A DNA stretch of 64,000 nt from positions 6,245,493-6,309,492 of the forward strand of contig OU612071.1 in the NCBI GenBank assembly GCA_914767715.1, given 5' to 3'. The position numbers and the translations under genes are program-made. This stretch comes from Membranipora membranacea (taxonomy: Eukaryota > Bryozoa > Gymnolaemata > Cheilostomatida > Membraniporidae). Below are positions 7,396 through 33,202 of the stretch, in pieces. The notes beneath the pieces were generated by a model. That model did not search any database. It saw only the letters and a program-made list of their open reading frames with translations, and was not told the DNA's origin. Numbering within the stretch: the stretch's first letter is position 1; each line of letters starts with the position of its first letter.

Positions 7396-7413
7396 AAATT
7401 ACAAGATAGATGC

Positions 7414-7419
7414 TTTATT
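7414..7419 (-). terminator. Polyadenylation signal of TRIM gene A
   Basis: The minus strand reads AATAAAGCATCTATCTTGTA here. The same block occurs downstream of TRIM B (45734) and TRIM C (58056), with AATAAA in the same place, so it is a conserved 3' UTR signal. It lies about 400 bases past the stop codon of gene A. Confidence 0.6.
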
Positions 7420-9348: not shown

Positions 9349-9355
9349 GTTCGGT

Positions 9356-9436
9356 CCCAAAACGGCCCGCGGCCCAAAACGGCCCGAGGCCCAAAACGGC
9401 CCGAAGCCCAAAACGGCCCGCGGCCCAAAACGGCCC
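9356..9436 (+). repeat. Left terminal 17 bp repeat array of the giant element
   Basis: Four units CCCAAAACGGCCC followed by GCGG, GAGG, GAAG and GCGG, then a 13 bp partial unit leading into AGCATGATTTATGAG. The right terminus has the mirror arrangement with exactly the same unit number and junction. Confidence 0.9.
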
Positions 9437-12400
9437 AGCATGATTTATGAGTTCTCCATGTCCCAAAACCTCTAAAAAAGGAGTCAAGTCAACGAACTTA
9501 AGTATTTGGGAAAAAACTTAACTTTTTGGGAAAAAACATAAGTTTTCAAATTTTTCAAAAAAACGGCCCATCTTGATTTTTCAGTTCTCCAAGTCCCAAA
9601 ACCTCTAAAAAATGAGTTAAGTCAACGAACTTAAGTCTTTGGGAAAAAACTTAAGTTTTCAAACTTTTCGAAAAAACGACCCATCTTGGTTTTTGAGTTA
9701 TCCAAGTCCCAAAACCTCTAAAAAAGGAGTTAAGTCAACGAACTTAAGTTTTTGGGAAAAAACTTAAGTTTTCAAACTTTTCGAAAAAACGGCCCATCTT
9801 GGTTTTTGAGTTATCCAAGTCCCAAAACCTCTAAAAAAGGAGTTAAGTCAACGAACTTAAGTTTTTGGGAAAAAACTTAAGTTTTCAAACTTTGCGAAAA
9901 AACGGCCCATCTTGGTTTTTGAGTTATCCAAGACCCAAAACCTCTAAAAAATGAATTAAGTCAACGAACTTAAGTTCTTGGGAAAAACTTAACTTTTTGG
10001 GAAAAAACTTAAGTTTTCAAACTTTTCGAAAAAACGGCCCATCTTGGTTTTTGAGTTATCCAAGTCCCAAAACCTCTAAAAAAAGGAGTTAAGTCAACGA
10101 ACTTAAGTCTTTGGGAAAAAACTTAAGTTTTCAAACTTTTCGAAAAAACGGCCCATCTTGGTTTTTGAGTCATCCAAGTCCCAAAACCTCTAAAAAAGGA
10201 GTTAAGTCAACGAACTTAAGTTTTTTGGAAAAATCTTAAGTTTTCAAACTTTTCGAAAAAACGGCCCATCTTGGTTTTTGAGTTATCCAAGTCCCAAAAC
10301 CTCTAAAAAATGAATTAAGTCAACGAACTTAAGTTCTTGGGAAAAAACTTAAGTCTTTGGGAAAAAACTTAAGTTTTCAAATTTTTCAAAAAAACGGCCC
10401 ATCTTGGTTTTTGAGTTCTCCAAGTCCCAAAACCTCTAAAAAATGAATTAAGTCAACGAACTTAAGTTCTTGGGAAAAACTTAACTTTTTGGGAAAAAAC
10501 TTAAGTTTTCAAATTTTTCAAAAAAACGGCCCATCTTGGTTTTTGAGTTATCCAAGTCCCAAAACCTCTAAAAAATGAATTAAGTCAACAAACTTAAGTT
10601 CTTGGGAAAAAACTTAACTTTTTGGGAATAAACTTAAGTTTTCAAACTTTTCGAAAAAACGGCCCATCTTGGTTTTTGAGTCATCCAAGTCCCAAAACCT
10701 CTAAAAAATGAATTAAGTCAACGAACTTAAGTTCTTGGGAAAAAACTTAACTTTTTGGGAAAAAACTTAAGTTTTCAAACTTTTCGAAAAAACGGCCCAT
10801 CTTGGTTTTTGAGTTATCCAAGTCTCAAAACCTCTAAAAAATGAGTTAAGTCAACGAACTTAAGTCTTTGGGAAAAAACTTAAGTTTTCAAATTTTTCAA
10901 AAAAACGGCCCATCTTGGTTTTTGAGTTCTCCAAGTCCCACAACCTCTAAAAAATGAATTAAGTCAACGAACTTAAGTTCTTGGGAAAAACTTAACTTTT
11001 TGGGAAAAAACTTAAGTTTTCAAACTTTTCGAAAAAACGGCCCATCTTGGTTTTTGAGTTATCCAAGTCCCAAAACCTCTAAAAAAGGAGTAAAGTCAAC
11101 GAACTTAAGTCTTTGGGAAAAAACTTAAGTTTTCAAACTTTTCGAAAAAACGGCCCATCTTGGTTTTTGAGTCATCCAAGTCCCAAAACCTCTAAAAAAG
11201 GAGTTAAGTCAACGAACTTAAGTTTTTTGGAAAAATCTTAAGTTTTCAAACTTTTCGAAAAAACGGCTCATCTTGGTTTTTGAGTTATCCAAGTCCCAAA
11301 ACCTCTAAAAAATGAATTAAGTCAACGAACTTAAGTTCTTGGGAAAAAACTTAACTTTTTGGGAAAAAACTTAAGTTTTCAAACTTTTCGAAAAAACGGC
11401 CCATCTTGGTTTTTGAGTTATCCAAGTCCCAAAACCTCTAAAAAATGAATTAAGTCAACAAACTTAAGTTCTTGGGAAAAAACTTAACTTTTTGGGAAAA
11501 ACCTTAAGTTTTCAAATTTTTCAAAAAAACGGCCCATCTTGGTTTTTGAGTTCTCCAAGTCTCAAAACCTCTAAAAAATGAGTTAAGTCAACGAACTTAA
11601 GTCTTTGGGAAAAAACTTAAGTTTTCAAATTTTTCAAAAAAAGGGCCCATCTTGGTTTTTGAGTTCTCCAAGTCCCAAAACCTCTAAAAAAGGAGTTAAG
11701 TCAACAAACTTAAGTTTTTGGGAAAAAACTTAAGTTTTCAAACTTTTCAAAAAAACGGCCCATCTTGGTTTTTGAGTTATCCAAGTCTCAAAACCTCTAA
11801 AAATGAGTTAAGTCAACGAACTTAAGTCTTTGGGAAAAAACTTAAGTTTTCAAACTTTTCGAAAAAACGGCCCATCTTGGTTTTTGAGTCATCCAAGTCC
11901 CAAAACCTCTAAAAAAGGAGTTAAGTCAACGAACTTAAGTTTTTTGGAAAAATCTTAAGTTTTCAAACTTTTCGAAAAAACGGCCCATCTTGGTTTTTGA
12001 GTTATCCAAGTCCCAAAACCTCTAAAAAATGAATTAAGTCAACGAACTTAAGTTCTTGGGAAAAAACTTAACTTTTTGGGAAAAAACTTAAGTTTTCAAA
12101 CTTTTCGAAAAAACGGCCCATCTTGGTTTTTGAGTTATCCAAGTCCCAAAACCTCTAAAAAATGAATTAAGTCAACAAACTTAAGTTCTTGGGAAAAAAC
12201 TTAACTTTTTGGGAATAAACTTAAGTTTTCAAATTTTTCAAAAAAACGGCCCATCTTGGTTTTTGAGTTCTCCAAGTCTCAAAACCTCTAAAAAATGAGT
12301 TAAGTCAACGAACTTAAGTCTTTGGGAAAAAACTTAAGTTTTCAAATTTTTCAAAAAAAGGGCCCATCTTGGTTTTTGAGTTCTCCAAGTCCCAAAACCT

Positions 12401-15240
12401 CTAAAAAAGGAGTTAAGTCAACAAACTTAAGTTTTTGGGAAAAAACTTAAGTTTTCAAACTTTTCAAAAAAACGGCCCATCTTGGTTTTTGAGTTATCCA
12501 AGTCTCAAAACCTCTAAAAATGAGTTAAGTCAACGAACTTAAGTCTTTGGGAAAAAACTTAAGTTTTCAAATTTTTCAAAAAAAACGGCCCATCTTGGTT
12601 TTTGAGTTCTCCAAGTCTCAAAACCTCTAAAAAATGAGTTAAGTCAACGAACTTAAGTCTTTGGGAAAAAACTTAAGTTTTCAAACTTTTCAAAAAAACG
12701 GCCCATCTTGGTTTTTGAGTTCTCCAAGTCCCAAAACCTCTAAAAAAGGAGTTAAGTCAACGAACTTAAGTTTTTTGGAAAAATCTTAAGTTTTCAAACT
12801 TTTCGAAAAAACGGCCCATCTTGGTTTTTGAGTTATCCAAGTCCCAAAACCTCTAAAAAATGAATTAAGTCAACGAACTTAAGTTCTTGGGAAAAAACTT
12901 AACTTTTTGGGAAAAAACTTAAGTTTTCAAACTTTTCGAAAAAACGGCCCATCTTGGTTTTTGAGTTATCCAAGTCCCAAAACCTCTAAAAAATTAATTA
13001 AGTCAACAAACTTAAGTTCTTGGGAAAAAACTTAACTTTTTGGGAAAAAACTTAAGTTTTCAAATTTTTCAAAAAAACGGCCCATCTTGGTTTTTGAGTT
13101 CTCCAAGTCTCAAAACCTCTAAAAAAAGAGTTAAGTCAACGAACTTAAGTCTTTGGGAAAAAACTTAAGTTTTCAAATTTTTCAAAAAAAGGGCCCATCT
13201 TGGTTTTTGAGTTCTCCAAGTCCCAAAACCTCTAAAAAAGGAGTTAAGTCTACAAACTTAAGTTTTTGGGAAAAAACTTAAGTTTTCAAACTTTTCAAAA
13301 AAACGGCCCATCTTGGTTTTTGAGTTATCCAAGTCTCAAAACCTCTAAAAATGAGTTAAGTCAACGAACTTAAGTCTTTGGGAAAAAACTTAAGTTTTCA
13401 AACTTTTCGAAAAAACGGCCCATCTTGGTTTTTGAGTCATCCAAGTCCCAAAACCTCTAAAAAAGGAGTTAAGTCAACGAACTTAAGTTTTTTGGAAAAA
13501 TCTTAAGTTTTCAAACTTTTCGAAAAAACGGCTCATCTTGGTTTTTGAGTTATCCAAGTCCCAAAACCTCTAAAAAATGAATTAAGTCAACGAACTTAAG
13601 TTCTTGGGAAAAAACTTAACTTTTTGGGAAAAAACTTAAGTTTTCAAACTTTTCGAAAAAACGGCCCATCTTGGTTTTTGAGTTATCCAAGTCCCAAAAC
13701 CTCTAAAAAATGAATTAAGTCAACAAACTTAAGTTCTTGGGAAAAAACTTAACTTTTTGGGAAAAACCTTAAGTTTTCAAATTTTTCAAAAAAACGGCCC
13801 ATCTTGGTTTTTGAGTTCTCCAAGTCTCAAAACCTCTAAAAAATGAGTTAAGTCAACGAACTTAAGTCTTTGGGAAAAAACTTAAGTTTTCAAATTTTTC
13901 AAAAAAAGGGCCCATCTTGGTTTTTGAGTTCTCCAAGTCCCAAAACCTCTAAAAAAGGAGTTAAGTCAACAAACTTAAGTTTTTGGGAAAAAACTTAAGT
14001 TTTCAAACTTTTCAAAAAAACGGCCCATCTTGGTTTTTGAGTTATCCAAGTCTCAAAACCTCTAAAAATGAGTTAAGTCAACGAACTTAAGTCTTTGGGA
14101 AAAAACTTAAGTTTTCAAACTTTTCGAAAAAACGGCCCATCTTGGTTTTTGAGTCATCCAAGTCCCAAAACCTCTAAAAAAGGAGTTAAGTCAACGAACT
14201 TAAGTTTTTTGGAAAAATCTTAAGTTTTCAAACTTTTCGAAAAAACGGCCCATCTTGGTTTTTGAGTTATCCAAGTCCCAAAACCTCTAAAAAATGAATT
14301 AAGTCAACGAACTTAAGTTCTTGGGAAAAAACTTAACTTTTTGGGAAAAAACTTAAGTTTTCAAACTTTTCGAAAAAACGGCCCATCTTGGTTTTTGAGT
14401 TATCCAAGTCCCAAAACCTCTAAAAAATGAATTAAGTCAACAAACTTAAGTTCTTGGGAAAAAACTTAACTTTTTGGGAATAAACTTAAGTTTTCAAATT
14501 TTTCAAAAAAACGGCCCATCTTGGTTTTTGAGTTCTCCAAGTCTCAAAACCTCTAAAAAATGAGTTAAGTCAACGAACTTAAGTCTTTGGGAAAAAACTT
14601 AAGTTTTCAAATTTTTCAAAAAAAGGGCCCATCTTGGTTTTTGAGTTCTCCAAGTCCCAAAACCTCTAAAAAAGGAGTTAAGTCAACAAACTTAAGTTTT
14701 TGGGAAAAAACTTAAGTTTTCAAACTTTTCAAAAAAACGGCCCATCTTGGTTTTTGAGTTATCCAAGTCTCAAAACCTCTAAAAATGAGTTAAGTCAACG
14801 AACTTAAGTCTTTGGGAAAAAACTTAAGTTTTCAAATTTTTCAAAAAAACGGCCCATCTTGGTTTTTGAGTTCTCCGAGTCCCAAAACCTCTAAAAAAGG
14901 AGTTAAGTCAACGAACTTAAGTTTTTGGGAAAAAACTTAAGTTTTCAAATTTTTCAAAAAAAACGGCCCATCTTGGTTTTTGAGTTCTCCAAGTCTCAAA
15001 ACCTCTAAAAAATGAGTTAAGTCAACGAACTTAAGTCTTTGGGAAAAAACTTAAGTTTTCAAACTTTTCAAAAAAACGGCCCATCTTGGTTTTTGAGTTC
15101 TCCAAGTCCCAAAACCTCTAAAAAAGGAGTTAAGTCAACAAACTTAAGTTTTTGGGAAAAAACTTAAGTTTTCAAATTTTTCAAAAAAACGGCCCATCTT
15201 GGTTTTTGAGTTCTTCAAGTCCCAAAACCTCTAAAAAACG
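9437..15240 (+). repeat. Left satellite arm, about 48 monomers of 113-133 bp with higher-order structure
   Basis: Monomers carry the landmarks CGGCCCATCTTGGTTTTTGA, CCAAGTCCCAAAACCTCTA, AAGTCAACGAACTTAAGT and AACTTAAGTTTTCAAA. Short monomers are about 113 bp; long ones carry one extra 19-20 bp CTTAA...TTGGGAAAAAA subunit. A diagnostic variant (GGGCCC instead of CGGCCC) recurs at 11643, 12360, 13191, 13908 and 14625, giving steps of 717, 831, 717 and 717. This shows a six-monomer higher-order unit, with one step longer by a monomer. The last copy decays from 15240 to about 15355. Confidence 0.95.
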
Positions 15241-15355
15241 AGTGAAGTCAACAAATAAAGTGTTTTGAGGAAAGATTTTATTTTAAATGTTTTTGCAAAA
15301 AAACGACCAAGTATGAATTTTGAGTTCCCCTAGTCAAAGTATAATCTGATAAAAA

Positions 15356-16703
15356 CTACCGTAACAATTGACATTGAATTTCGGAAACTGGATTGTGTAT
15401 AGAAAATCGAAGATTACCCCATTGTTAGCAAGACAGTCAATTTGCCTAGAGTCATGTATGGTTTACTATGAAGTTTATGTTTGATGTTTCCTAGTAATTA
15501 ACTTCTCATCCAATTTATTGCGATGAAGAAGTTGTCTTCACATTTTGTGAGTTAGGACAACTCTGTATAATGGTGATTTTCATGTAATATCCAGTTTCCA
15601 TACAAATTTTCCATGATAAAATGCATCACTTATTTGCAACTAACGGGGTAATCGAGCAATCACCATCGGCTCAATTACTGGGTGTTCCAATAAATAACCA
15701 CCTACACTGCACTGGAAATGTGGATTACAGTATTGAGTAGCAGTTTATGGGTTATTAATATTAAAGCGACATGGCATAAGATCAGATTTACTTGTAACAT
15801 TTTTTCTGGCAAGAATTTTACCTATTTTAACATATGTATGCCCATCATGGTTTACATACACCACCCAGATTGCCAAGGATCGACTAGGACACCAACAAAG
15901 CCTCTGTCTTCCGATTATCTATCCAACAATCACGTCCTACACTGAGAGGCTAAACAGAGCTGGCATACCACATCTAGTTGATACTAGTGGACAAAATAAC
16001 TTTCAAGCATAGAACTGCGCTGATGAACAGCTCGCTGTCCAACACGACTGGCTAATCTAATTTTTTTAAAGTGATAACGTATTATTGTCATCTTTTTACC
16101 TGACTGACACAAACAACTATTCATGCATATCTTATGTAAATCACAACCTCATTGGTATCACATGATATACTGGTTGGATGAATAAAGTTTGTATTGTATT
16201 ACATAACTATGCTGTTACCACCCCTCGAGGGACAAAGAAATCCATTGTCATGAGGTCAACTCTTTAGTTGAATAGAGTCAGCTTGGAGAGCTCTAAACGT
16301 TTTTTCTTCGTTTGCTAATATATAAAATATTCGTTATGGTTCTATGCGTAGAAGGGGCGGGGGGGGGGGGGCATTGAATGTGTTGACAACTCACGATTCA
16401 ATGATGCTAACGATTACCATGATGATAAAACGTAAAAAAGGTCTGCCATTGGTGGGATTTGAACATGGGCCTCCCGCATCACAGTATGCAGAGCTATCCA
16501 TTCATCCACACAGCCATGGTCACAGATTGAGTTATATGGGTATCTATATGAGCTCAATTTGACTTAATGCTATCCTTTTAATCCAATAGATACTAGAATT
16601 GACTTGACGTTGACGCAACGAACCATAGTGATTAACAGATTAATAAAGGAAGAGCTTGACTATCATTTCCTGTTGTGCATTCATGATCTAAAGTTCAGTT
16701 ATC
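15356..16703. other. Inner left non-coding region of the giant element
   Basis: This lies between the left arm and the first coding exon of the transposase gene and should contain its promoter. It is AT-rich, with a G run at 16361-16370 and a tRNA-like segment at 16443-16516. No other gene was recognised. Confidence 0.5.
16443..16516 (-). repeat. tRNA-like sequence (SINE head or tRNA relic)
   Basis: The minus strand reads GTGGATGAATGGATAGCTC, resembling a D-arm/A-box, and about 40 bases later GTTCAAATCCC, a good B-box. Arm pairing is partial, so a SINE-derived or relic sequence is more likely than a working tRNA gene. Confidence 0.4.
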
Positions 16704-16742
16704 TTGAAAAGTTTCCTATCAGTGTCCTCATCTTTTCACAAA

Positions 16743-19700
16743 ATGTCTGACCCTCCTCAAATCCGTCAGTGCAACTGTAACCATGTCAGCAGACAAATAC
16801 AGTGTGATAATTGCCGTTATTGGTTGCATGTCACATGTAACATGTCAAATGCTCAGCACGACTATTTTAGCGGAGCTGATATCACTTTTCTTTGTAAGTC
16901 ATGCGTGTTTACACGAGATACTTATGACTCTATTTCTGCTCTGAGAAGGTGAGTGGTCGAAAATAAGTGTCTTTGCTGCATAGACAATCCACACATCTGT
17001 GTTTTGATAATGGTGCAGCAAATTAAAGATTTTGTGAATCCTTCTGATATCATTAAACTAAGAACTATTGTGTGATCGATTGACTGGTTTGACAGAGGCA
17101 GAGTCATTGTTATATTGCCATGTATTTACCAAATGGTCTATGTGCTGTTTGTGGGTATTTCTGAAGACCGTCCGTGTAAATTTCTTATATGCCGTAGTGT
17201 ATGCGGCATTGTCGATGATATTAAGGCTGATTTCATGTCATATCCTCTTGTTTTGCAATAAGTGTTAATCAAACAAAACTGATATGCAAGGAATGAATAA
17301 GAAATAATTTCCGGTATCAACCACTCCATTGCAGAGTAAAGGCATGTTGGTCCCTGGGGCCCTAGTCGGCCTTTTCTTTGATTCAAAATTTGTTGAATTT
17401 AGAATGGTAGTGGACCTTGGGCATTGTTATCTTTCTATTTGTATGCACTTTACTAGCTACATTATATTGTAAAAAAAATGACAGTCAGTGGTTGAATAGT
17501 AGGATTCCTTTTAATGTGTGCAAAGATCTTACCAGTAACTTATCAACAAGTGCTTGGATAGCTACCAACAAATTGCAATAGGGGGTGTTTTCTCTAAAAT
17601 CTGGAGGAAATAGCAAGAATTACAATAATTGGAGATAGGGGTAAAAATCTGGAGGGTCAGTCCTAAATCTGGAGACTTGGCAAGTATGGGTCTAATGAAT
17701 TAAATGCTTCCATTAGTACAACTTGAATGCCAGCATACCTAAATACCTTCAAAAAGAGTCAACAGTTTTAGCATGAATATTGTGACATTGATTCTTCTGC
17801 ATTGTAGACCAGGGTTTTGAAAATATGTCACACATCATGCAAAAATGTATAGTGCTCTATCCAAAAATTCATGGTCTAGGGTCTAGACCATAAACTTAAT
17901 AATAAATCTAGACAGTACACCATCACACATGAATATTGACAGCTATGAGTAATTAAGTTTATAATCCAAACATACCATAACATTGTGCAGCTACCATTAT
18001 TTTTCATTCCTCTGGTCACTTCTAGGATTTATCAGGCTGGACGTACTGCCCTTTCAGCACAGAATGAGCTTGCTCTTCTCAACTTGTATGGTGTACATTT
18101 ACCCGAAATAAACACTAACAGAGATTATTTCCTCGAAACAGGTATGTTTCTGCTAAACCTAAAATGAATTGTAAACTACTGGAGGGAACTTTTTTGCAAA
18201 TATCAAGAGGAAATACAGAATAATCACCGCCTTGTCTTTCATTATTTGGTGGAAAATAATTGTTAGTGTTAATGGATGGCAATTACCCTAGAAGAGGAAA
18301 GTATTTGCAGCAGAAAAATTTCTACTTTCGCACATGCCTCAAATAGCAAAAGTTAAGTCTAGCTAATATAAACTTAACAATTTTTTATAGGACGCAACTC
18401 AAGCTAGCCAAAGTTTCATGCCCAATGTAGTTTGAACCATCTGTTTGCCGCTATGTGACGAGTTTCTGGTTGTGACATGTTTTTTTATACCTTTTTACTC
18501 CTACCGCATATAAAACGGGAGTTGCTTTTACTGCATGCAAGGTGGGGCAAATCCAAAGTAATACATGATGGCCATTAGAAATTGGCTAATATTCAGTAGG
18601 GCTATAACAAAGTTACAAAATTGATTTTCAAAGGAGCCAGGATTTGCCCAACATCTCAGAAGATATTGGGTCACTACCTTCCACAATTGGCCTGTAAAAC
18701 AGCTGCCTTATATAGCTCCATGGATGGCAACTGCCTCTACAATGCAGTATCACTGGTTTTATTTGGAGATGAAGGTAGCCAGAGCCAGCTAAGGTTGCTT
18801 ACCGTTATAGAGATGATTCTCTATCGAGAATACTATGAAAATAGTGGGTATGTTCCACTCATCTTTCATTTTATTGTTTTCGCATGGGTTGGATAACAAT
18901 TGAACCTGACCTGAAAAATTTTCTACCTCCCAAATGTATGAAATGGCAGTGGTGATCAGTAATAAAAATCATCAAATGAGTTTGATTTAGTCGTTGACCT
19001 AAGGTATCCTGTTTGATATTTGTTTATGACAGGACAACATCTTTCATACTTTCTTTTGAGTTCTGAAACAAGTTCCTAACATAGAGAAGCAACTTATCAG
19101 TGCAGGACTCTAAACTAAGTGAACGAATGTACCAAACTGATAATACCATGATGTAGGTAATCATCTCAACAATAGTGTGAATATCATATTTGTACCTCAT
19201 TGCTCTATTTCTAATTAAAAAAAATCCAGTTGCCACCATTCAATGGAAAATGAACATTTCCAGTGATATGCTGATAAAAGGAAACTGTGTAGGCTACTTA
19301 ATTTAATGATTAATTTTGAGACATTTACTTCCTTCCTGCAAATTAACAAAAGTTCATAGCAACTCTTTACCACTGTATGTAAATGCTATGAAAATCAGCA
19401 GAACAAGTTGTATTGTTTGCATTGTTAGAGAAATTGATCAGCTGGACAGGTACGAATGGGATGCATATTTAGAAGTTTCATCGAAAAATGGAACTGCGCA
19501 GAGTAAAACATCTGTATACGCTCTCTCTGCAATACTGGAGAGACCACTACGTCTACTATGGCCTCAAGTAGAATACCTTGATATGCCGGAGAATTCGGGT
19601 CGAGTCTTTGGAAGGGATGTTCCAAACAATGGAAATCCAGCAGCAACCCTTATGTTTACATCTTGCCGGTTCGATGGCCAGTCATTTAATTTTAACCACT

Positions 19701-22700
19701 GGGTCCCACTAGTCCAGTCGACTGAGGTGGGTTTACAATAATATTTTAAAATTCTAGCCTTTACCTGACAGAGGTGGTTCAATCATGTTAACAAGCATAC
19801 ATTGCATGTTAAATTTAAGTTGAACGCAGAGCTTCAGTTGTTATCGTTATATTCACATTTATTTGTTGCTTGCTGGCTTTACATGACAAAAGTATATTAC
19901 AGAAAAAATGTAAGATGTGGTAAGCTTTTGGCATCATGTTCATATATATATATATATATATGATTTATATTGCTTTACAACCTAAGCTGATATATATATT
20001 TATACATATCAGCTTAGGTTGTAAAATCATACGAGGGATAGGATAGATTGAAAAAAATCGTATCAATATTAGTCATGGTAAAGTTAAGTCAGGGTTAAAT
20101 TGTAAAATTGCAATTTACCTGACTTGTCTTAGTGAAATTGTGAATTGACTTAATTGAATATTTGACTCGATTTGTCGTACAGAATCTGATGACCATGATA
20201 ACTTCATAATAATATGTCATATTTGGGGCAATGAATTGTGAGTTTGTGAAAGGTACCAATTTCGTATTTGGGAGTTGTGGTCTCTCTTGACAAGTGTGGA
20301 CAACTCAAATATCAAAACTTGACACTTCCTTTTTCCTACTGCCTAGGTCAAACCTGACGTTTTTTCAATGTTAAGAAAACAGTGGCGATGTTTTGTGATC
20401 TTATAAGTTCTATTCAGATCAAAGGCACAAACAAGGTGGATAGTAAAACTTGAATTGTGATACATTGAGACTATTATCGCTACATTAATAAATACCACTT
20501 AAAACTCCCACGTCGTTGAGAGACAGTATGATAACTAAGAATGCATCAGATGCTAGTATCACATTTCAGATTGTTCCTTGATTTAGCAAGATTCATGACT
20601 TGACATGACTCTAAGTCATTTTATCACGGCTGTGGTAATCAATATTCCATGTTTTAAACTACATTCATTCTTTACCAGGAGGTGATAGATCTCGATAGAT
20701 ACCATAACGATGGGGTGGTCGATGAAGAGGTATCATTGGTGGGTTTACAGTATTGTAATGTATTCAAGCTAATATGTACATCTATGGCTCTTATGCCTTG
20801 GTTACTGTAATAATAGTGAGAGCACATGAATAGAGTAGTTAGGTGGCACAGAAGCAAAAATACCACATACTCAGTACACATATGAGACCACCTGTTTTTT
20901 CTTGGTTGAAAATGCCACCTGTCAGTGGATATCCCCACACAATAATCTGGCTGCAAATTATGTCAGAACTTTGGAATTTGATAAGTAATTGCTTCAAATT
21001 ACCTGCAATATCATATTTGTAATGGATAAGATAAACAATTTTTTTGTACCATTTGATTAACATCTTTGCCAGGTACATGCCACCCATCCAGGACAAGTTC
21101 TTGGGCAGGAAAGAATACGTTCACTGAAGGCTATAAACAAGCAGAATTATACTGAGGTATCGTCATAAATTTATTTAATGTACAGTGCAATATCATCTTG
21201 AACTGAATGAACAGCTCACCACATTTGATTATCAATAAACACCTACTTGAATTAGGGCATTAGGGCTACATAAATCTAAGCATATCATATATGTTTCATT
21301 AAACATAGTATGTGGCTCGGACGGTTACATAAAATTTTAGTCCGAAAGGGCACTCGCCAGTGGAAAACACTACAGCAAACCCTGGCTTTGGAATCTGATA
21401 AGTAATTGCTTGATATTTCCAACTATACAATATATGTCATAGAAAGATGAAATTATATTTGAACCCCTTCGACAGGTACCTACCACACACCCAGGGCCAG
21501 GTCTTGCTCAGGAAAGAGTACGCTCACTAATACCTATCAACAAGCAGAAGTATGCTGAGGTATTGTCATAAATCGAATTACTCTACAGTGCTAATTATTC
21601 TTGAACTGAATGAACAGCTCATAACACTTGATTGTCGATAAAAACCAGCTTGAAAAGGGCATCGATGTTCAATAAATCTAAGTATATCAATATATGTTTT
21701 CATTAATCCAAGTATGTGACTGGGAAGGGGACAGTGAAATTTTGGTTAGTAAGGGCACTTGCCAGTGGACAACACCACACCAAAATCTGGTTGTATATTT
21801 GTGTACGAGGGTAAGTAATCGATTAAAAATCCGGGCAATATTACATCTGTAATGTAAAAGATAAGATTTTATTTTAACCCTCTGTTAAACATCTTTGGCA
21901 GATATCTACTAAAAAGCCAATGCCAGCTCATCAGAATAAAAGGAGACGTTCCCCAAAGCCTATAATCAAGCAGAAATATACAAAGGTATTGTCACATTTC
22001 TGAAATGATACTCCAGTTCTGTAAAGTTTTAACCTCAATGGCTTACAAAACTTGGTTATTGATAAATACAAAAATAGATATGGACATTTGAATCATATTA
22101 AGACATGTCAGCATACCTAATATGCAGCTGCAATCACAATGTTCAGTTAAAATATAGCAATAAGATTCCTTTTGCTTTTGGACAGATTTTGAGGACGCCA
22201 GTGGCTCGAGTCTCTTCTTCCCCGATTGCAGATGTAAGCAGCACAATTTACCTGTACCGTCTTTATTTTGTTCCTTTACAATCGAGCTGTAAATTTATTT
22301 AAAGCTTATTATGTCACTTGAACTTCACTTCTTTCACTTTAGAGCGTTTTTAATAATGCAATATTTATCTGCAATTGATTTGATAACTAAAATAAAAATC
22401 TTGTGAAAAGTTTTAATGTGCAAAGAGGCGTCAAGATGACTTTACTGAAAATGTCTGAAGCATAGATATTACTTGTTGATAAATGTTTTCAAGGGGTTAC
22501 AATGATTGTACATGTCCACTTGTGTTAGCTTACGGATCAATTAATATTACATACAGCCGAATGTGGTGAAGGACAAATCCATGTTGGTATCGCCTTTATT
22601 TATTTGACTGGTGGGAATGCTACAGTGAATGTTAAGTTGAATTAGTTGGGAAGAGGTATCAATTCAGAATCTTACGGATTATGACCTTGTTTGAAACATC

Positions 22701-25700
22701 TTTGGATTAGGTATGAGGATGTATCATTTATCATACAGGTTGAGAAAGTAATGGATTTAATTTTGGGTGATTCTCTCGCTGGGCTAAGCAATGATGGAGC
22801 TGACAACAATTTTCAGGTACCACTTACAATTCTTTCAACATTATTAGATATGGTGAACTTTTCTGATTTAAAGCAGGCACAAGTTCTCATCATAACAAAT
22901 GTGTCTATATGTCTAACGAACTAAAAGTCACAACTACTTCAAATTTTCAAATTAATGCTTCTGTTCATATAACTGGTTATGCCATTTATTCAAAAAATCA
23001 AATTTGTTGGGGAAAGTAGCTAATAATTTATATTAAACCGTGTTAAGAGGAAATTTTGGGAAGTTATTTTCACAGTTTTTTTAACTATTAATATTTTTTA
23101 GACACAATATTTGATAATCATTATAAAAAAGCTGAGTCTCCGTTATTCGCATTATGATTACAGCAATCTGTAAGCAATAAATGACCTTTTGGTAACTGAG
23201 TTTGTATGTAGCTACGATTCAGGAAAACAACTGAAACCATTTTCTGCTATCCCACAGGAAGATGAAAGGGTAGAGGAGGAGGGTTCGCTGCTCCTAGAGT
23301 ACACGACTCCATTTGATCCCGAGGAAAGGTAAAGTTGGTGGAAATCCTTTCATTTTGAAAACCAAGCTATTCAGACATTTTCTTTTGGTCATTACATACA
23401 TATCACAGCGATAAGTTTGGGCTTTGCTGCTGTGCATGCAATGTTATAATTGCTCACCAACTTGGAATAAGCAGCATATACGTAAGAAGAAAGCACATTG
23501 TACAGCACTGCTGACTTGACTACAACATTCTTTTAACACAGAGATGAAGAACCGGACCCTTTCAATGAGGAGATAACTACAGATCAGGATGAGGAGGAAG
23601 CCGGCAGATTCATCATTGTAGACTCCGGGACACAAAAAAAATCACGTGCTTTAGTTCATACCAGTGGTTACAGGTTCACTGAGAAAAACTATGGTCGTGA
23701 TAATGTAAGAATATTTTAAGGTCATCAGTACTGAGCATTGCTGTTGAAAATCATCTCATTGCTTTCTTCACTTTATCTAGATCTCACATAACAATATGAG
23801 TCATTTTCTACGGTGGAAGCAATTTGGTTCCTAATACTGAATTTTCATCGGAAACCCTGATGTGACCTCACACATGGCCTATAAGTTCTCATGTGAGAAA
23901 TTTGATAGGGACAACTTTGATGTCATATAACACAGCTTCTGGTGGTACAAAAGGGTGAAATTAAAATTTCAGTGTAGAGTCACTAGCTTTGCTGAGTCTT
24001 GTACACAACAGGAGCTACTCTCACACTATATTTCATCACACTCTGAAATCCTGCTCTTTATAGGGTGTCACAATTATTGCATTTCCAGGTAAACCAACTG
24101 ATGATGAATATCCAAGGTACTGGTTCAGGTTCACATTTGGGTTTAATTTTTTTTATTTTTATGAAATAACTTTCAGCCCTATGTAGATTGGCGATGCTCA
24201 AAAAGGCCGAGCTGTCCAGTGATGATTCGTATGTCTCTTGAATCTGAATATCAACAGAAAGAAGTGCACAATCACCCTCCCAACCACAACATACTCGCAG
24301 ACACTGAGTTTTGCAGATCAGTGAGTTATGATGTATGAGTGGCTGTTAAAAAAATATGTTACTGACCAGTTCCTAACAAAGCATACATTGGTTGTTTTAC
24401 ATGTTGCTAATTGGCAGTTATACATATATTGTTAGATGTTCTAGTTATTTTTATATGTTTGCGCTGAGTAAATGTCGACTGTGTCCACATGGTCTATTTT
24501 TGCACAGATAAAGGAAAAAGCCAGTGACATCTTCCTTGAACCTGCTGAAGTCTATGACAAAGCTGTGAATGAAGCGGAGGCGGTACATCAGAAGATATCT
24601 TCTAATCAACTGAATAGCCGAATAACCAAAAAGAAAATACGGTATCACAAATCTAAGACACATCCAAGTCACCCGCAGTCTCTTGACTTTGAGGTGAGAC
24701 CGACCATATCCAACTTACCAAAACCATGTAAATTTACATTGTTGAAGTTTGAAATATACAGTGCTCCAACCATACCAGGGGGATTGCCAACGCAAAAAAT
24801 TGATTAATATGCGTTAGCAGAAAAATAGCCCCCAGTCTGTTAAGATGGCTTTGAAATTGTTTTAGACAAACACATCCTTGCGATAAAGCAAGGTCCAACA
24901 GTTTTCATCAAAGATTGTTGCGAAAATTAACTTTGATAATCTCAGTATTCTAAGGTTGCCTGCGGCGATGCCAAAACGTGTACAGTAACTTCTCTTGTAG
25001 CTAATCATCAACCTATTGTTTCCCACAATGTTTCCTGTTTAGATTCCCTTATCTTGGAGAGAATCCATAGTTGATGTCAGTGTCGAGGATCAGAGGCACA
25101 TAATATACTCTAACACTTCACTCCTAAAATTGCTAAAAACACGCAAGCAATGGTGATGTATACGAAAAAAAAGCCAATAATATTGCCCTTCACAATGCTC
25201 AGAATTTCAGACTATTCAGAAGACATGCCCCTGTAACTGATCACGACTCATACCATTGATTTAGGAACAATATCACAGTCCTTGATACTATTAAGATTAT
25301 GAGAGAGTCTGCAGTCTGTTGATCAATAAAGATTTCTGTTACACACTTATTGATCATCATCGTATATGCCGATATAAGTTGAACAAAACACGCTTCTTAT
25401 TGATGTACATACTTTCAACTCATAGGTATTTAGATGGAACTTTCAAGTGTGTTCGAGAGCCATTCAAACAGCTGTATACTTTACATGCATTTGTGAAGCA
25501 GGGAGAAATTATGAAGCAGGTTCCCCTAGTATTTGCTCTGATGTCACGGCGTACAAAGCAGGACTATGTTGCAGTATGTAGCTTTACAAAATCATTTAGG
25601 CTAGATATGATTGACATTGTGTTAGCATTATCCCAATCTATCTGGACAACATTTGTAATTGTTGCCTGTAAGTTCTAAAACCGCTGACTAAATATTTGTA

Positions 25701-28700
25701 TTTGAAATGCAAGTGTCAAACATGTGGAAGGTTAAAGGATTATATACAAGGAGTTAGTTTAGTTTGCTTTTGTTATCAGATCCGAAATTACCATGTGGTA
25801 ATAAAAATTGATCCCGGGTTGCTCTGGGTAAAAAATGGTACTAAAAATGATTCAGCTTACATGAAAATTTTTGTCATGGTATGACTTAACAACATTAAAA
25901 GATCTATGACATCAACATCGCATTGGTGTGAAATTGGTGACTCAATGAGAAGATGAGTTGATAGCCTAATGGATGTCATATCTGAATTTTCCATGCTCCA
26001 TTACATATTGCCACCAATTTTTATCACTCTGCTGCCATTCAGTGTTGAGATATACACCATGTTTTCATTTGAATGGTGAGGTTGACCTCAAAATATGCAT
26101 CAATTTCCAATAAAGAGCTGAGAAAAAAAATATCAAAAAGAATTTGCAGCCTTCAGGGATTGAAATCGGAACTCTCTTGCAGATATCAAATATCCTAGCA
26201 GCTCAGCGCGAACTGGCAGGTGTTTCAATGGCTCGAGGAGCCCTGTAAATAGCCTCAGGTCTATCCATCAAAACGCAGTAATAGACAGCAATAATGGGTG
26301 TAAAAAACAAAATTTGAGGGCCTTTTATGGGAGTATCCTCAAAGCTGTGACATCGATTGAGGGAGTTCCATCTAGTTCATGGGACATACCGCATTGAAAA
26401 GCATGAGTAATTTAGTATTTTAGTACCTATAGATAAGCCCCTGGTATAGGCCTTTAGCTTCTAAACCCTGAAATGAGCCTATAAAAAATTATTGAAATAA
26501 ACTCACACAATCATCATAACACATGTTTATTAACCTCTATCAACGTCATGATCTTTGGATCTAGTTCCACCTGACCCCAACTTTTCTTACACAATATTTG
26601 GAGTATGATACTAATAGTTATGAAAAATGGTGGACAAATGTAATGGACCATAGAAATTCTATCATAGGTAGTCAAGTCATTCCTTGTCTATCAGACTTTA
26701 ATGTAATAACAGGAGTCCGCTTTGTCACTAGGTACTCAAAAAGATATTAGACATTGCTGGTGATGTAGCAGTTCAAGTCTGCAACTTGGACTTTGAAGCA
26801 GGTAGGTTATTTTTTTATATCATTATGTCTTGGAGTGATCAAAAATTGGATAAGGCTAGATGTGTTTGTTTTCAACATAAAATGAAATAGTAGAATGCAT
26901 AATTTGTATCAATAATCACTTAGTTGATCAATTATTGTAGCTATGTGGGCTGCTATACGTGAGGTGCTGCCGAACGTAAATGTTCACGGATGCCATTTCC
27001 ATCACAGACAACGAATTATGAAGAAGGTGAAAGCCATTCCTGGTATGAGAGCTTAAATTATTTATATTATTTCATCTCACAGATGAATTGGTATTGCAAT
27101 AAATCTGCTTCATTTTTCTTCTACCAAATCAATTACAATAGTTGGATGACAAATTGCTTCACATTATTAATCTCTCTGATGAAGCTAAGTTATTTGCAAA
27201 TGCAAAAGATATTTGCTGGCAACAATGCGCACAAATAGGCTTTTGGTAGGTGTAGAAAGGAACATCTATTTTTGATAATTACGTATCAATGTCCATAATA
27301 TAAATGTTGGCACATGATATAAGATGTACTATCACATGGTAATATTTAAAATCGAAATGAAGATATGTGGTAAAGCGCTAAGCCTTGTAATCTGGCTTTC
27401 ATCCACACCAAAAGGTCCAACATAGTTGGATATGTCATGTCATATATGTCATGTATTGTTACTCAAATTAAAAGGCTGCAAGCTCGTGAGTTGATTCATA
27501 TACTTATATGTACAAACCATTGTGTCAGGTACATATAAGTGCAAATGACTGGGAAGTTTAAGATGCTGACGGTTTAGGAATGTATTCTCACTCAAGCTGT
27601 GATTATTCTTTCCTGAGTGTTCCACCATGCACATCTGTTGATCTCTAGAGTGTTGGAAAACCGGTCTTAAAATTGAGATTTGCCAGTCTACAAAACTTTG
27701 AATTTTTGTCAGATGGCGCCACTCTTGAAATCAGTCTACAGCTATATAGATAATTTTATAACTAGCGAATTTCAGAGTTGTTTTCTGCACTGCTTTTGAT
27801 TTTCTTCAAAATTCTGAGCTCTGAGAGGAATGATAATGACCTTTGCACACTGTGTACACTGCTGTTTAGGTAATCAGGTTCAAAGTAAGGCAAAATAAAT
27901 CACTTAAGGACTCTGGTCTCTCTTAGCCTGTAATCTTAATAGACTCACAATATAAGAGGCCAAATCCTAAATTAACAACAACTACAATCATCAAATACAT
28001 ATTTGATTTGATTAGTTTTCGATATTTTAGCATTTTTTAAAGTATATTTGATTCCTTTGAGAAATTCAATGTGTGATATATATCTGTCTATGAAGACCGG
28101 GATCTTTCCATTTCTGTCTCACTTATACCAAGTGGGCCACAAGCATTTATTGTGAAACTAGGCATATATACATATTGTACTATTCAGTGTCTTTCTAAAA
28201 GCCCATCATCTATTGTATACACACCATACATGTGTTCTATCTAATTAATTATTGGTTTAGGTTATAGGTTTGGGTTTGGGCTGGGCGGTTGGTGTTCAGG
28301 TTTCAGGAAATATTACATCTGGTCGACTATGTCTCTGATGAACTTCACATAAATCATCATTTCTGTTACATATAACTGTACTTTAAAATAAAAATGCTTT
28401 CACAAGGAGGTTATGTTTTTATGATAGACGGCAAGGTTTATCTCTTTTTGAATCAACATTATATTAAAATAATGTAAGTATTATATGTAGCACCTATAGA
28501 CATAAAAACAGTTTTTATATCTATGGTAGCACCCTATCAACATCATCGACTGGAAATGTTGGTACTCAGTGTTGGTTTACAATCCAGTAGTCCCATTTAA
28601 ATACGACGCCAAAATCTAATTACTGATCGTAGAATGCAGTTTTCCAAAAACGTAACCTATATGTTAAGTCGCTGGGCCTAATCTATGCTGTTCTGGTCAT

Positions 28701-29638
28701 AGAAAAGCCTGTGCCAGTTATAAAGCAGTTATCAACAGGTACAAAATCAATCAAACACCTAGCCCGGATTATGTTATAACTGGTCACGCTTAAAACTAAA
28801 CATCCCCTATATTTTGAAACACAGGATGGTACAGGAAATATTGCCAGGATAGCGAGACCAAACAATTTGTCCAAATGGTAATGGGACTAGCGCTACTTCC
28901 ACCTGAGGGAGTGGTTCCAGCACTAGGTTGGCTAAGAGAAATGGCAAAGTCAGCCCCTGCCAAAGAATTGCTGTTGTATTATGAAAATGTTTGGACAAGG
29001 AGATGGAAGCCATCAGAAGTTTCAGTATTTGGCCGAAAGATACGTACCAATAATGACTTGGAAGGTAGGGAAAATCCAAGGATCATCAAAGGGAATGCAA
29101 CACATGTTTACAATGCTTGTTGCGTATTTATCTACAAGTTTTTTTTTCTCATTCCAAAAAATGATTTGATTTGTTTATTTTTTACTGAACACCTTCCAGA
29201 TCAACACAATAATAATATTTAGCATCTTTTCTAACAATGCTGAAGTAACTGAGGACCTGACGATCTGCCGGTGTGTTGGTATTAATAATTTTGTGATTAA
29301 CTGCCAATTTGTATACTGTCATTTGGTTGTAACATTCTTCCATAGGCTACCACAAACGGCTGAATGACCTGACCAAAGCAAAATCAAACACGTGGAAGCT
29401 CATGGCAAGGCTTGCTTTAGAGGCCAAGGAGGCCTTGAGACAGGTGCAGCTGGTGAAGGTGGGAGAGGCCACCAGGATCAGGAATAAACGTTTTCTTAAA
29501 ATAAATAGGTCAATTTTTTCAGCCTTTGATAAATTTAATCGTACGAAAAACCTCAAAGACCTACTACGGTTCAGTGCATATCAGGCTGATGAGCTAGGCA
29601 TATCTGCAATTACGATGGAAGAAACGGAATATGATTAG
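16743..29638 (+). CDS. PHD-OTU-FLYWCH-MULE transposase, 20 exons, 929 residues
   Basis: Exons: 16743-16948, 18026-18141, 18634-18847, 19429-19726, 20679-20729, 21073-21156, 21476-21559, 21902-21985, 22186-22233, 22739-22816, 23258-23328, 23542-23704, 24177-24320, 24508-24693, 25043-25152, 25426-25573, 26732-26801, 26941-27042, 28825-29064, 29346-29638. All junctions are GT-AG, phases agree, and the sum is 2790 nt with no internal stop. Residues 10-55 form a PHD-type finger (CNCNHV..QCDNC..WLHVTC..LCKSC). Residues 108-278 form an OTU/vertnin-like domain with MDGNCLYNAVS (Cys141) and FNHWVPLV (His269). Residues 490-535 are FLYWCH-like (WRCSKRPSCP..HNHP). The transposase core has Asp649 (WYLDGTFK), Asp715 (CNLDFEA), GCHFHHRQR near 735-743 and Glu832 (TNNDLEGYHKRL), a complete DDE set as in MULE transposases. 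An alternative in-frame ATG lies at 16704. The protein would cut and move the element in the nucleus; the role of the OTU protease is unknown. Confidence 0.88.
19961..20030. repeat. AT-rich hairpin in an intron
   Basis: TTTACAACCTAAGCTGATAT is followed after a short AT loop by ATATCAGCTTAGGTTGTAAA, a near-perfect inverted repeat beside a (TA)n tract. Confidence 0.7.
20920..22020 (+). repeat. Triplicated exon-plus-intron unit inside the transposase gene
   Basis: Three diverged copies of a roughly 400-425 bp unit, each containing an 84 bp phase-0 exon (21073-21156, 21476-21559, 21902-21985). The intron parts also align: CCAGTGGA..ACACCAC, GATAAGTAATTGCTT, GAACTGAATGAACAGCTCA. The encoded 28-residue peptides share the pattern VxTHPG..GQER.RS...INKQ.Y.E, with the third copy most diverged and basic (NKRRRSPKP). 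Confidence 0.85.
26150..26222 (-). repeat. Possible tRNA-like sequence in an intron
   Basis: The minus strand reads GAGCTGCTAGGATATTTGAT and later GATTTCAATCCC, reminiscent of A- and B-boxes. The match is weak. Confidence 0.25.
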
Positions 29639-29733
29639 TTAAACATCACTGCACTGTATGTTTGTCATAGTCTAGTTCAATCTTTGTCAATATTTTATTA
29701 TCCAATCATTGTTCTGTTAGTGCTCTGATGAAA

Positions 29734-29739
29734 AATAAA
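29734..29739 (+). terminator. Polyadenylation signal of the transposase gene
   Basis: AATAAA about 95 bases after the stop codon and before the right satellite arm begins. Confidence 0.5.
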
Positions 29740-29917
29740 CGAAATATATACTGGTGTAAACTACATTGAGAAATGTACTACGAAAACAAACACATTCTGC
29801 ACGTAAGTTAGACACCCTTGCATTTACATAGTATTTTATTGTCCTAAGCCATGTCAACTGTTACATTTATTTCTATCAGGTTAGAATTTACTTAACTTTG
29901 TTGACTTGTTGTTTTAC

Positions 29918-32799
29918 AGAGGTTTCAAGACTTGAAGAACTCAAAAATCACGCTGGGCCAATTTCTTGAAAAGTTTCAAAACTTTTTTTTTCACAAAATC
30001 TTAAGTTTGTTGACTTAACTCATTTTTTAGAGGTTTTGGGACTTGGAGAACTCAAAAACCAAGATGGGCCGTTTTTTTGAAAAAATTGAAAACTTAAGTT
30101 TTTTCCCAAAATCTTAAGTTTGTTGACTTAACTCATTTTTTAGAGGTTTTGGGACTTGGAGAACTCAAAAACCAAGATGGGGCGTTTTTTCGAAAAGTTT
30201 GAAAACTTAAGTTTTTTCCCAAAAAGTTAAGTTTTTTCCCAAAAACTTAAGTTCGTTGACTTAACTCATTTTTTAGAGGTTTTGGGACTTGGAGAACTCA
30301 AAAACCAAGATAGGCCGTTTTTTTGAAAAATTTGAAAACTTGAGTTTTTTCCTAAGAACTCAAGTTTGTTGACTTAACTCATTTTTTAGAGGTTTTGGGA
30401 CTTGGAGAACTAAAAAACCAAGATAGGCCGTTTTTTTGAAAAATTTGAAAACTTAAGTTTTTTCCCAAAAAGTTAAGTTTTTTCCCAAAACTTAAGTTCG
30501 TTGACTTAACTCATTTTTTAGAGGTTTTGGGACTTGGAGAACTCAAAAACAAGATGGGCTGTTTTTTTGAAAAATTTGAAAACTTAAGTTTTTTCCCAAA
30601 AACTTAAGTTCGTTGACTTAACTCATTTTTTTAGAGTTTTTGGGACTTGGAGTACTCAAAATTCAAGATGGGCCGTTTTTTTGAAAAATTTGAAAACTTA
30701 AGTTTTTTCCCAAAAACTTAAGTTTGTTGACTTAACTCATTTTTTAGAGGTTTCGGGACTTGGAGAACTCAAAAACCAAGATTGACCGTTTTTTCGAAAA
30801 GTTTGAAAAGTTAAGTTTTTTCCCAAAAACTTAAGTTCGTTGACTTAACTCATTTTTTAGAGGTTTTGGGACTTGGAGTACTCAAAAACCAAGATGGGCC
30901 GTTTTTTTGAAAAATTTGAAAACTTAAGTTTTTTCCTAAAAACTCAAGTTTGTTGACTTAACTCATTTTTTTAGAGTTTTTGGGACTTGGAGTACTCAAA
31001 ATTCAAGATGGGCCGTTTTTTTGAAAAATTTGAAAACTTAAGTTTTTTCCCAAAAAGTTAAGTTTTTTTCCCAAAAACTTAAGTTCGTTGACTTAACACA
31101 TTTTTTAGAGGTTTTGGGACTTGGAGAACTCAAAAACCAAGATGGGCCGTTTTTTTGAAAAATTTGAAAACTTAAGTTTTTTCCCAAAAACTTAAGTTCG
31201 TTGACTTAACTCATTTTTTAGAGGTTTTGGGACTTGGATAACTCAAAAACCATGATGGGCCGTTTTTCCGAAAAGTTTGAAAACTTAAGTTTTTTCCCAA
31301 AAACTTAAGTTTTTTCCCAAGAACTCAAGTTTGTTGACTTAACTCATTTTTTAGAGGTTTTGGGACTTGGAGAACTCAAAAACCAAGATGGGCCGTTTTT
31401 TTGAAAAATTTGAAAACTTAAGTTTTTTCCCAAAATCTTAAGTTTGTTGACTTAACTCATTTTTTAGAGGTTTCGGGACTTGGAGAACTCAAAAACCAAG
31501 ATGGGGCGTTTTTTCGAAAAGTTTGAAAACTTAAGTTTTTTCCCAAAAAGTTAAGTTCGTTGACTTAACTCATTTTTTTAGAGTTTTTGGGACTTGGAGT
31601 ACTCAAAATTCAAGATGGGCCGTTTTTTTGAAAAATTTGAAAACTTAAGTTTTTTCCCAAAAAGTTAAGTTTTTTTCCCAAAAACTTAAGTTCGTTGACT
31701 TAACACATTTTTTAGAGGTTTTGGGACTTGGAGAACTCAAAAACCAAGATGGGCCGTTTTTTTGAAAAATTTGAAAACTTAAGTTTTTTCCCAAAAACTT
31801 AAGTTCGTTGACTTAACTCATTTTTTAGAGGTTTTGGGACTTGGATAACTCAAAAACCAAGATGGGCCGTTTTTTCGAAAAGTTTGAAAACTTAAGTTTT
31901 TTCCCAAAAACTTAAGTTCGTTGACGTAACTCATTTTTTAGAGGTTTTGGGACTTGGATAACTCAAAAACCAAGATGGGCCGTTTTTTCGAAAAGTTTGA
32001 AAACTTAAGTTTTTTCCCAAAAAGTTTTTTCCCAAGAACTCAAGTTCGTTGACTTAACTCATTTTTTGGAGTTTTTGGGACTTGGAGTACTCAAAAACCA
32101 AGATGGGCCGTTTTTTTGAAAAATTTGAAAACTTAAGTTTTTTCCCAAAAACTTAAGTTCGTTGACTTAACTCATTTTTTTAGAGTTTTTGGGACTTGGA
32201 GTACTCAAAATTCAAGATGGGCCGTTTTTTTGAAAAATTTGAAAACTTAAGTTTTTTCCCAAAAACTTAAGTTTGTTGACTTAACTCAGTTTTTAGAGGT
32301 TTTGGGACTTGGAGAACTCAAAAACCAAGATGGGCCGTTTTTTCGAAAAGTTTGAAAACTTAAGTTTTTTCCCAAAAAGTTTTTTCCCAAGAACTCAAGT
32401 TCGTTGACTTAACTCATTTTTTGGAGTTTTTGGGACTTGGAGTACTCAAAAACCAAGATGGGCCGTTTTTTTGAAAAATTTGAAAACTTAAGTTTTTTCC
32501 CAAAAACTTAAGTTTGTTGACTTAACTCATTTTTTAGAGGTTTTGGGACTTGGAGAACTCAAAAACCAAGATGGGCCGTTTTTTTGAAAAATTTGAAAAC
32601 TTAAGTTTTTTCCCAAAAACTAAAGTTCGTTGACTTAACTCATTTTTTTAGAGTTTTTGGGACTTGGAGTACTCAAAATTCAAGATGGGCCGTTTTTTTG
32701 AAAAATTTGAAAACTTAAGTTTTTTCCCAAAAACTTAAGTTCGTTGACTTAACTCATTTTTTAGAGGTTTTGGGACTTGGAGAACTCATAAATCATGCT
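29918..32799 (-). repeat. Right satellite arm, about 24 monomers, inverted relative to the left arm
   Basis: Same satellite as the left arm in reverse complement: landmarks AACTTAAGTTTTTTCCCAA, GTTGACTTAACTCATTTTTT, TTTTGGGACTTGGAGAACTC and CAAGATGGGCCG. Many monomers have a second CCCAAAAAGTTAAG subunit. The arm is roughly half the length of the left arm and its variants differ, so the arms have evolved separately by unequal exchange. Confidence 0.95.
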
Positions 32800-32880
32800 G
32801 GGCCGTTTTGGGCCGCGGGCCGTTATGGGCCTCGGGCCGTTTTGGGCCGCGGGCCGTTTTGGGCCGTGGGCCGTTTTGGG
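32800..32880 (-). repeat. Right terminal 17 bp repeat array of the giant element
   Basis: Mirror of the left end: four 17 bp units plus the 13 bp partial unit, read on the minus strand from 32880. Unit tails are ACGG, GCGG, GAGG and GCGG, with one unit carrying CCCATAACGG. Confidence 0.9.
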
Positions 32881-33202
32881 CGTTTTCCACAATAACTACT
32901 TCATGTATCACATATAAATAAATGAGGTATTACAAACACATGATTCAGCATACCAACCAATCAGCGGAGTAACATGCTAAACCTGAAGGGCTGTATTGTT
33001 TACAGGCGTGTATTTGATATCAAATAATTTTCTGCTTTGCTTTGTAGTCCCTTTAGCAGTTGTGCATTGTGAAGGAGATGTAAGGTCAAGAATGACCATA
33101 ACAAATTTGATTTATTAATAGGCAATGGCTGAATGCTATGAGTTTGCGAGATGCTTTTGCATGGCTCTGAGTAGGGAATTTTACTTGTAAAGGTGAGATG
33201 AC

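Follow-up and report, generated by a model that had tools for sequence, protein, structure and literature searches.

A very large Mutator-like transposon with fold-back anatomy and long tandem arms in the bryozoan Membranipora membranacea

The fold-back transposons FB/NOF of Drosophila and FARE of Arabidopsis combine modular inverted repeats with a MULE-related protein and a majority of non-autonomous copies; they differ from the element described here in hosts, units and proteins, a distinction drawn by description and not by sequence. The MULE domain of FARE is cited in the account of Tm1 (PMC3169594), a Mutator/Foldback element of root-knot nematodes whose transposase that study assigns to the FLYWCH/MULE Phantom subclass. 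Most Tm1 copies bear a different 7-bp terminal motif at each end (24/39 and 20/22), and target duplications and MITE-like derivatives are also described (PMC3169594). Galileo of Drosophila, a P-superfamily element with a P-type transposase, has long inverted repeats whose internal tandem units vary in number and, as shown in one species, bind a domain of the transposase; in D. mojavensis the repeats reach ~1.26 kb, and the longest of them are reported never to lie on nearly complete copies (PMC3573991, PMC3688188). The fold-back element Tetris of Drosophila virilis shows target duplications of 8-10 bp and 220-bp arm units that grew into satellite-like arrays of up to 66 units, with no autonomous copy found (PMC4079207). 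Among the MULEs, Rehavkus is described with a PHD finger, a minisatellite adjoining its 3' repeat and a 9-bp duplication, and MuDR-6_HM is listed with an ovarian tumour (OTU) gene; neither is listed with kilobase arms in the survey, where inverted repeats measure 14-500 bp in the text and up to 613 in a table (PMC6446971).

In its anatomy the element reported here most resembles Tm1; further precedents are Galileo, Tetris, Rehavkus and FARE. Like Tm1, it couples a MULE protein with inverted repeats made of variable numbers of short tandem units and with asymmetric tips; whereas motif C of Tm1 is mostly 14 bp long and present in 1-9 units, the repeats here consist of 17-bp units followed by 113/133-bp units in numbers of up to 49, the target duplication is mostly of 8 bp rather than 9 bp, and, unlike in the Tm1 protein as far as it is described there, an OTU domain and a PHD-like part are found (PMC3169594). 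The 8-bp duplication likewise compares with the 8-10 bp of Tetris, whereas against the long arrays of that element a single isolated 8-unit array was met here; in contrast to Galileo, the longest arm seen is on the apparently intact copy. The fusion of OTU and MULE domains in one protein recurs in a database relative (P0002, below), and the likeness to MuDR-6_HM and to Rehavkus is one of description: of the Rehavkus traits, the PHD finger is below the Pfam cutoff here (C4HC3 by eye) and the arrays are at both ends. A literature search combining MULE, OTU, FLYWCH and transposase returned no paper. The sequence-only reading had named FB/NOF as a precedent and proposed a new, very large lineage. 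Tm1 with its asymmetric tips, tandem units and MULE protein is closer, and Tetris, Galileo, FARE and Rehavkus share some of the traits; the element is indeed very large, though it is a variant of an already known kind. Its novelty seems to lie in how these traits are combined and in their scale, viz. kilobase arms of up to 49 units and an OTU-MULE protein on an apparently intact element.

The window, i.e. the whole 64-kb stretch of DNA that was analysed (C7:6245493-6309492 of a 339-Mb genome in 18 contigs), contains the element between two inward-oriented 8-bp tips (Table 1). The two tips differ from each other and we refer to them as A and B, with A at the left and B at the right of the window copy. 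The element had at first been delimited at 9356 and 32880, by terminal arrays taken to be identical over 81 bp; its true ends are displaced outward by 8 bp at either side, each with its own tip, and the arrays agree at only 77 of 81 positions. The inward arms of one monomer in opposite orientations are borne out by two methods. Tandem Repeats Finder places the 17-bp arrays at 9356-9436 and 32800-32881 and reports rows of 113-246 bp period on the left, together covering 9515-15273, and rows of 113-361 bp period in the opposite orientation over 29918-32809, while a monomer scan of 7001-35000 recovers 49 forward units at 9426-15181 and 25 reverse units at 29940-32785, with none outside the two arms in that interval. 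The units are spaced at 113 and 133 bp (31 and 17 spacings, respectively, in the left arm; 17 and 7 in the right), and the arms are of unequal length (~5.9 kb versus ~3.0 kb), aligning with each other at 86.6-88.5% over ~3.0 kb. The termini are, therefore, long inverted repeats of tandem subrepeats that vary between ends and copies, as in fold-back elements. Scans of the window for tRNA and Rfam matches found nothing. Tandem Repeats Finder additionally reports an 87-bp tandem repeat of 3.2 copies at 42333-42604 of the window, which is unlike the arm monomer.

Table 1. Features of the element and of the interrupted gene, in positions of the 64-kb window
Feature	Position	Strand	Basis or remark
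3' part of interrupted host gene, propeller-like exons	6500..9347	-	collinear with paralogues
Whole element, 23,541 bp	9348..32888	+	A tip and B tip, inward orientation
A tip, GGTTCGGT	9348..9355	+	common to other copies, outside one 17-bp array
Left terminal array, 17-bp unit x 4.8	9356..9436	+	Tandem Repeats Finder
Left (A-side) arm, 49 units of 113/133 bp	9426..15330	+	Tandem Repeats Finder, monomer scan
Transposase gene model, 21 exons, 951 aa	16743..29638	+	open frame over hand-set splice sites
Exon 1, PHD-like C4HC3 finger	16743..16948	+	Pfam PHD below cutoff; cysteine spacing by eye
Exons 3-4, OTU cysteine protease domain	18634..19726	+	Pfam OTU, residues 138-244
Exons 6-8, three consecutive 84-nt exons, triplicated 28-aa unit	21073..21985	+	
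Exons 12-13, FLYWCH-like zinc finger	23542..24320	+	Pfam below cutoff; alignment with P0001, P0006
Exons 16-21, MULE DDE core (YLDGTF; NLDFE; CHFHH; RTNNDLEG)	25426..29400	+	Pfam MULE, alignment A1
Right (B-side) arm, 25 units, inverted	29918..32809	-	Tandem Repeats Finder, arm alignment, monomer scan
Right terminal array, 17-bp unit x 4.8	32800..32880	-	Tandem Repeats Finder
B tip, GGAAAACG	32881..32888	-	common to other copies, outside other array
5' part of interrupted host gene, B-box-like and coiled-coil-like exons	32889..36500	-	collinear with paralogues

Genome-wide searches with 21-base tip patterns, allowing up to 3 mismatches and with the reversed patterns as controls, recovered 63 A tips (0 with the reversed control) and 80 B tips (4 with the reversed control). 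Defining a pair as neighbouring inward-facing tips less than 30 kb apart, we obtained 37 pairs: 33 of the A+B type, 4 B+B and no A+A, with 30 A and 39 B tips left unpaired. Shuffling the labels among the paired tips gave a mean of 18.5 A+B pairs and a maximum of 29 in 20,000 trials. The pairs thus follow, almost strictly, a pattern in which each element has an A tip and a B tip; they range in length from 442 to 23,541 bp, the window copy being the longest. By their flanks, two A+B pairs on C2 are segmental duplicates of each other, as are two on C5, and hence the independent loci are fewer than the pair count. The four B+B pairs, the sole exceptions to the rule among the 37, are 1.7-1.9 kb each and all lie in C8:281084-573424; in two of them an A tip is found ~235 bp outside a B tip.

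The flanks were read for 32 of the 33 A+B pairs, leaving out one pair on C10 and using the outer of two B tips for the pair at C8:21.17 Mb. Exact target duplications lie beside the tips in 14 of these, 13 of 8 bp and one of 9 bp (both C2 duplicates being included in the count), and one further pair has an 8-bp duplication with one mismatch. A C5 element with a damaged left tip, which is outside the 32, also has an 8-bp duplication. Thus, the family shows target duplications in the ~8-11 bp range of MULEs, while the window copy does not. In all, 17 of the 32 pairs, i.e. the window copy with its junctions at 9348/32888 and 16 more, have no duplication at 0-1 mismatch, which implies that recombination, loss of flanks or wrong pairing of tips is common.

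These unduplicated junctions favor the strongest alternative, namely that the window copy arose from two elements by ectopic exchange between arms, so that two intact tips remain with no target duplication. Such an origin has been proposed for fold-back elements that cause inversions, and ectopic exchange is reported for Galileo (PMC4079207) and suspected for one copy of Tm1 (PMC3169594). The surroundings of the window copy speak against it: homologous exons flank the element on both sides in the same order as in two paralogues of the same window, at ~38-46 kb and 56-64 kb, such that a local loss at the right junction suffices. The exon cut by the element is continuous in the two paralogues, where AG is followed by GTTGATGTG-ACTGCTAGG and by GTGGATGTA-ACTGCGAGA, respectively. 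In the window copy, the cut exon begins at ACTGCGAGG, at 9347, directly at the A tip, and the paralogues therefore supply an element-free site for the left junction; a search of the 900 bp next to the B tip recovered neither the start of the exon nor its splice acceptor. Their absence there indicates that the flank at the right junction was probably lost together with the target duplication. Furthermore, within the 32 pairs whose flanks were read, the C2 duplicates are the only loci to share a half-duplication. A recombinant origin of the window copy is hence less likely than flank loss, and we regard it as unlikely overall. In the preferred reading, that of an insertion followed by local loss, the window copy would have entered an exon of a B-box/propeller-like gene and the flank at its right end would have been lost later. 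This gene belongs to a family with B-box-like, coiled-coil and propeller-like parts that has three members in the window, at 6500-9347 with 32889-36500, 38000-46500 and 56000-63900, one of which is split by the element; the Pfam matches to the B-box and to the propeller of the interrupted copy are below their cutoffs.

The single gene between the arms was modeled by placing GT..AG borders by hand over 16743-29638, resulting in a 2,856-nt open frame in which one exon is just 13 nt long. A Pfam search of the whole protein recovers the MULE domain PF10551 (residues 669-763; 40.5 bits versus a cutoff of 27.6; 3.8e-10) and an OTU domain (24.2 bits versus 23.3), and lists neither PHD nor FLYWCH. The open frame with exon 3 has OTUD1 as its best relative of solved structure in the PDB (E 0.003). 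On single open frames, the PHD match of exon 1 scores 18.3 bits against a 24-bit cutoff and the FLYWCH match 13.6 bits against 23.6; the product of exons 12-13 aligns with the FLYWCH part of the relatives P0001 and P0006, in both of which FLYWCH scores above the cutoff (below it in P0003). With respect to the Phantom subclass, defined by an N-terminal FLYWCH finger plus a MULE domain (PMC3169594), the window protein thus has the MULE domain above the cutoff and FLYWCH below it. A search with residues 500-951 recovered six relatives, including two Branchiostoma proteins. One relative, P0002 (1,075 aa), combines a MULE domain with an OTU match just at the cutoff, and its N-terminal stretch resembles the end of exon 1. 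In another, P0005 of Branchiostoma, the MULE core is joined to a reverse transcriptase domain, probably a gene model across a nested insertion.

In a seven-row alignment (A1), D672 is present in all seven proteins, as are G758, C759, F761 and H762, while D738 is present in six (P0006 is without it) and the E of NNDLEG in five (P0005 and P0006 are without it). The conserved acidic residues and the C-H motif of the MULE core are those that we take to be catalytic. Compared with an older copy at C3:3053192, the coding sequence differs at 61 of 1,802 aligned positions (of 2,856 bases) and the introns at 290 of 6,357, with 36 non-synonymous and 25 synonymous changes giving a pN/pS of 0.40. The remaining comparisons are uninformative due to too few changes or decayed copies: 0.70 on 14 changes with the C6 copy, three coding changes, all non-synonymous and none synonymous, with C3:2293643, 0.54 and 0.53 for two pieces with C9, and 2.1 on 9 changes with C4:10334960. 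Thus, the claim of one intact DDE gene between the arms agrees with a model that is open over all 21 hand-set exons, and the gene appears to be intact with some purifying signal.

A genome-wide search with the MULE exon gave 43 matches, of which seven, the window's own included, are at 87-100% identity. Other complete elements, for which the sequence-only reading had advised a search, are represented by two further copies in which the whole 14.6-kb interior lies between two arms, and they also sustain the description of a very large fold-back MULE. In the copy at C3:2293643-2310918 the interior is 99.35% identical over 14.6 kb and the coding exons are broken by one stop and a 25-nt gap; in that at C6:7492061-7514882 it is 98.8% and 98.5% identical in two pieces and the gene reads open to within two residues of its end. 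The older copy at C3:3053192 retains one truncated arm unit, and that at C4:10334960 a degenerate short array adjoining an A tip with two mismatches at C4:10328066. We checked for arms at the seven places at 87% identity or more and at one of the 36 more distant matches: copies of the gene free of these termini had been anticipated as contrary evidence, and all seven places keep at least one arm unit nearby, though some are without full termini. Hence, gene and arms go together in all seven.

This association bears on a second alternative, in which the gene is a domesticated host gene with another role and the arms are a separate non-autonomous family. Its length, its many exons, the OTU domain and the trace of purifying selection would all suit a host gene; however, the same arms enclose three near-identical copies, each on a contig of its own, and deletion derivatives share interior pieces with the gene copies, making domestication very improbable. 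In three derivatives, at C7:21435343, C8:21173426 and C10:11108877, the right 1.5 kb of the interior is duplicated as a mirror image, with a common break at window positions 27864/28397; the one on C10 has lost most of one side, and a target duplication is present in one of the three, that on C8. The latter suggests that the mirror-image form arose once and then moved. A related MULE at C7:159000-177200 (L077/L057) shows 47% identity to the window protein in one piece of the core, against 88% DNA identity along ~950 bp at the gene's 3' end. It has a B tip, a 17-bp array and just two or three arm units, with no A tip found in the 18 kb read, and MULE matches resembling it occur at several places in C7:0.17-2.3 Mb; it looks like a tail swap and may be a short-armed cousin.

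The arms vary considerably, with 4-49 units per arm in 16 arms of nine copies. Much of the left arm of the window copy (~11080-14900) consists of 717-bp blocks of six units that are 98-99% identical, and stretches of 794-1,581 bp recur at shifts of, e.g., 717, 1,548 and 2,265 bp with 98-99% identity, from which we conclude that the six-unit blocks were, by their identity, amplified recently. At the duplicated C5 locus (L058, L059), elements of 1,119 and 649 bp have the same flanks and the 470-bp difference lies in the right arm. The C2 duplicates measure 2,998 versus 1,123 bp; the additional central sequence in the longer element matches nothing in the interior of the gene-bearing copies and may thus be an insertion rather than arm growth. 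Homogenisation specific to each arm was considered and rejected: identities within arms are about the same as those between elements (0.91-0.97, leaving out an older C9 arm at 0.84-0.86), indicating no concert beyond the 717-bp blocks. Over 341 units, individual motifs average 0.90-0.95 compared with an overall 0.91; among 40 units taken from older copies, TTTTTGAGTT (0.94), GTCCCAAAACC (0.91) and ACTTAAGTTTT (0.88) exceed the mean of 0.80, with AAAACGGCCC (0.84) little above it. Motif conservation in these 341 and 40 units supports no claim of binding sites.

The monomer pattern has 560 matches genome-wide against 2 in the control, 70 of them in the window, a number that rises to 297 when 38 other loci are added. 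At ~120 bp each, the 560 units amount to ~67 kb or 0.02% of the genome, more diverged units being outside this count. Places were listed for 100 of the 560, all exact matches on contigs C1-C6: 93 are on the inner side of a tip and no more than 10 kb from it (91 of them no more than 3 kb), three are in the C5 element with the damaged tip and four in one isolated 8-unit array without tip or interior match (C3:7755737-7756650; L078), which alone of two tip-less arrays examined is without element parts. Apart from this one 8-unit array, transposon-independent arrays, which if long would be the mark of a satellite, are absent among the 100 matches listed (of 560). The monomer is, therefore, repeat DNA borne by the element and not a satellite of the genome, so that the proposal of a satellite DNA family carried or created by the transposon lacks support in that wording; satellite creation is a possibility inside the arms and not a finding. 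That the arms are instead ordinary chromosomal satellite, a finding that the sequence-only reading had named as contrary to its own view, with a MULE inserted by chance or misassembled between them, is scarcely credible in spite of their resemblance to satellite arrays with higher-order blocks, given the 560 monomer matches genome-wide, the placement of most of the 100 listed monomers on the inner side of tips, and the recurrence of the order tip, 17-bp array, arm and interior at independent loci, several with target duplications. A misjoin as the source of the anatomy is unlikely on account of the same independent copies with target duplications.

Taken together, we propose, with a probability of roughly 0.9 for this explanation as a whole, that the element is an autonomous, recently mobile cut-and-paste MULE transposon with fold-back anatomy, in which the class that carries the gene has the same two tips as the many shorter classes. 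In mechanistic terms, the OTU/MULE protein with its PHD- and FLYWCH-like parts is predicted to bind the 17-bp terminal arrays, and perhaps also motifs in the arm monomers; it would then pair an A end with a B end, cut at the tips and insert the element elsewhere with an 8-bp stagger. Unequal exchange or slippage would let the arms grow and shrink in situ, as suggested by the 717-bp blocks and by the two arm lengths at the duplicated C5 locus, while internal deletion and mirror-image duplication would give rise to derivatives moved in trans. A more far-reaching version, which we consider tentative and on balance doubtful, holds both that the arms are a working part of the element, arrays of sites bound by the transposase which continue to expand through satellite-like amplification of blocks on the intact autonomous copy, making the element a satellite nursery before escape, and that the OTU deubiquitinase-type domain counters host marking or silencing.

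In the cited accounts, what is known of fold-back elements comes largely from defective copies. The present genome combines an apparently intact copy with relatives of 4-49 units per arm and with the near-strict A+B rule. Thus, the role of long tandem arms, and the question of whether transposons seed satellites, become testable in this system, and the union of OTU and MULE domains in one protein offers a lead on how animal MULEs may handle host control.
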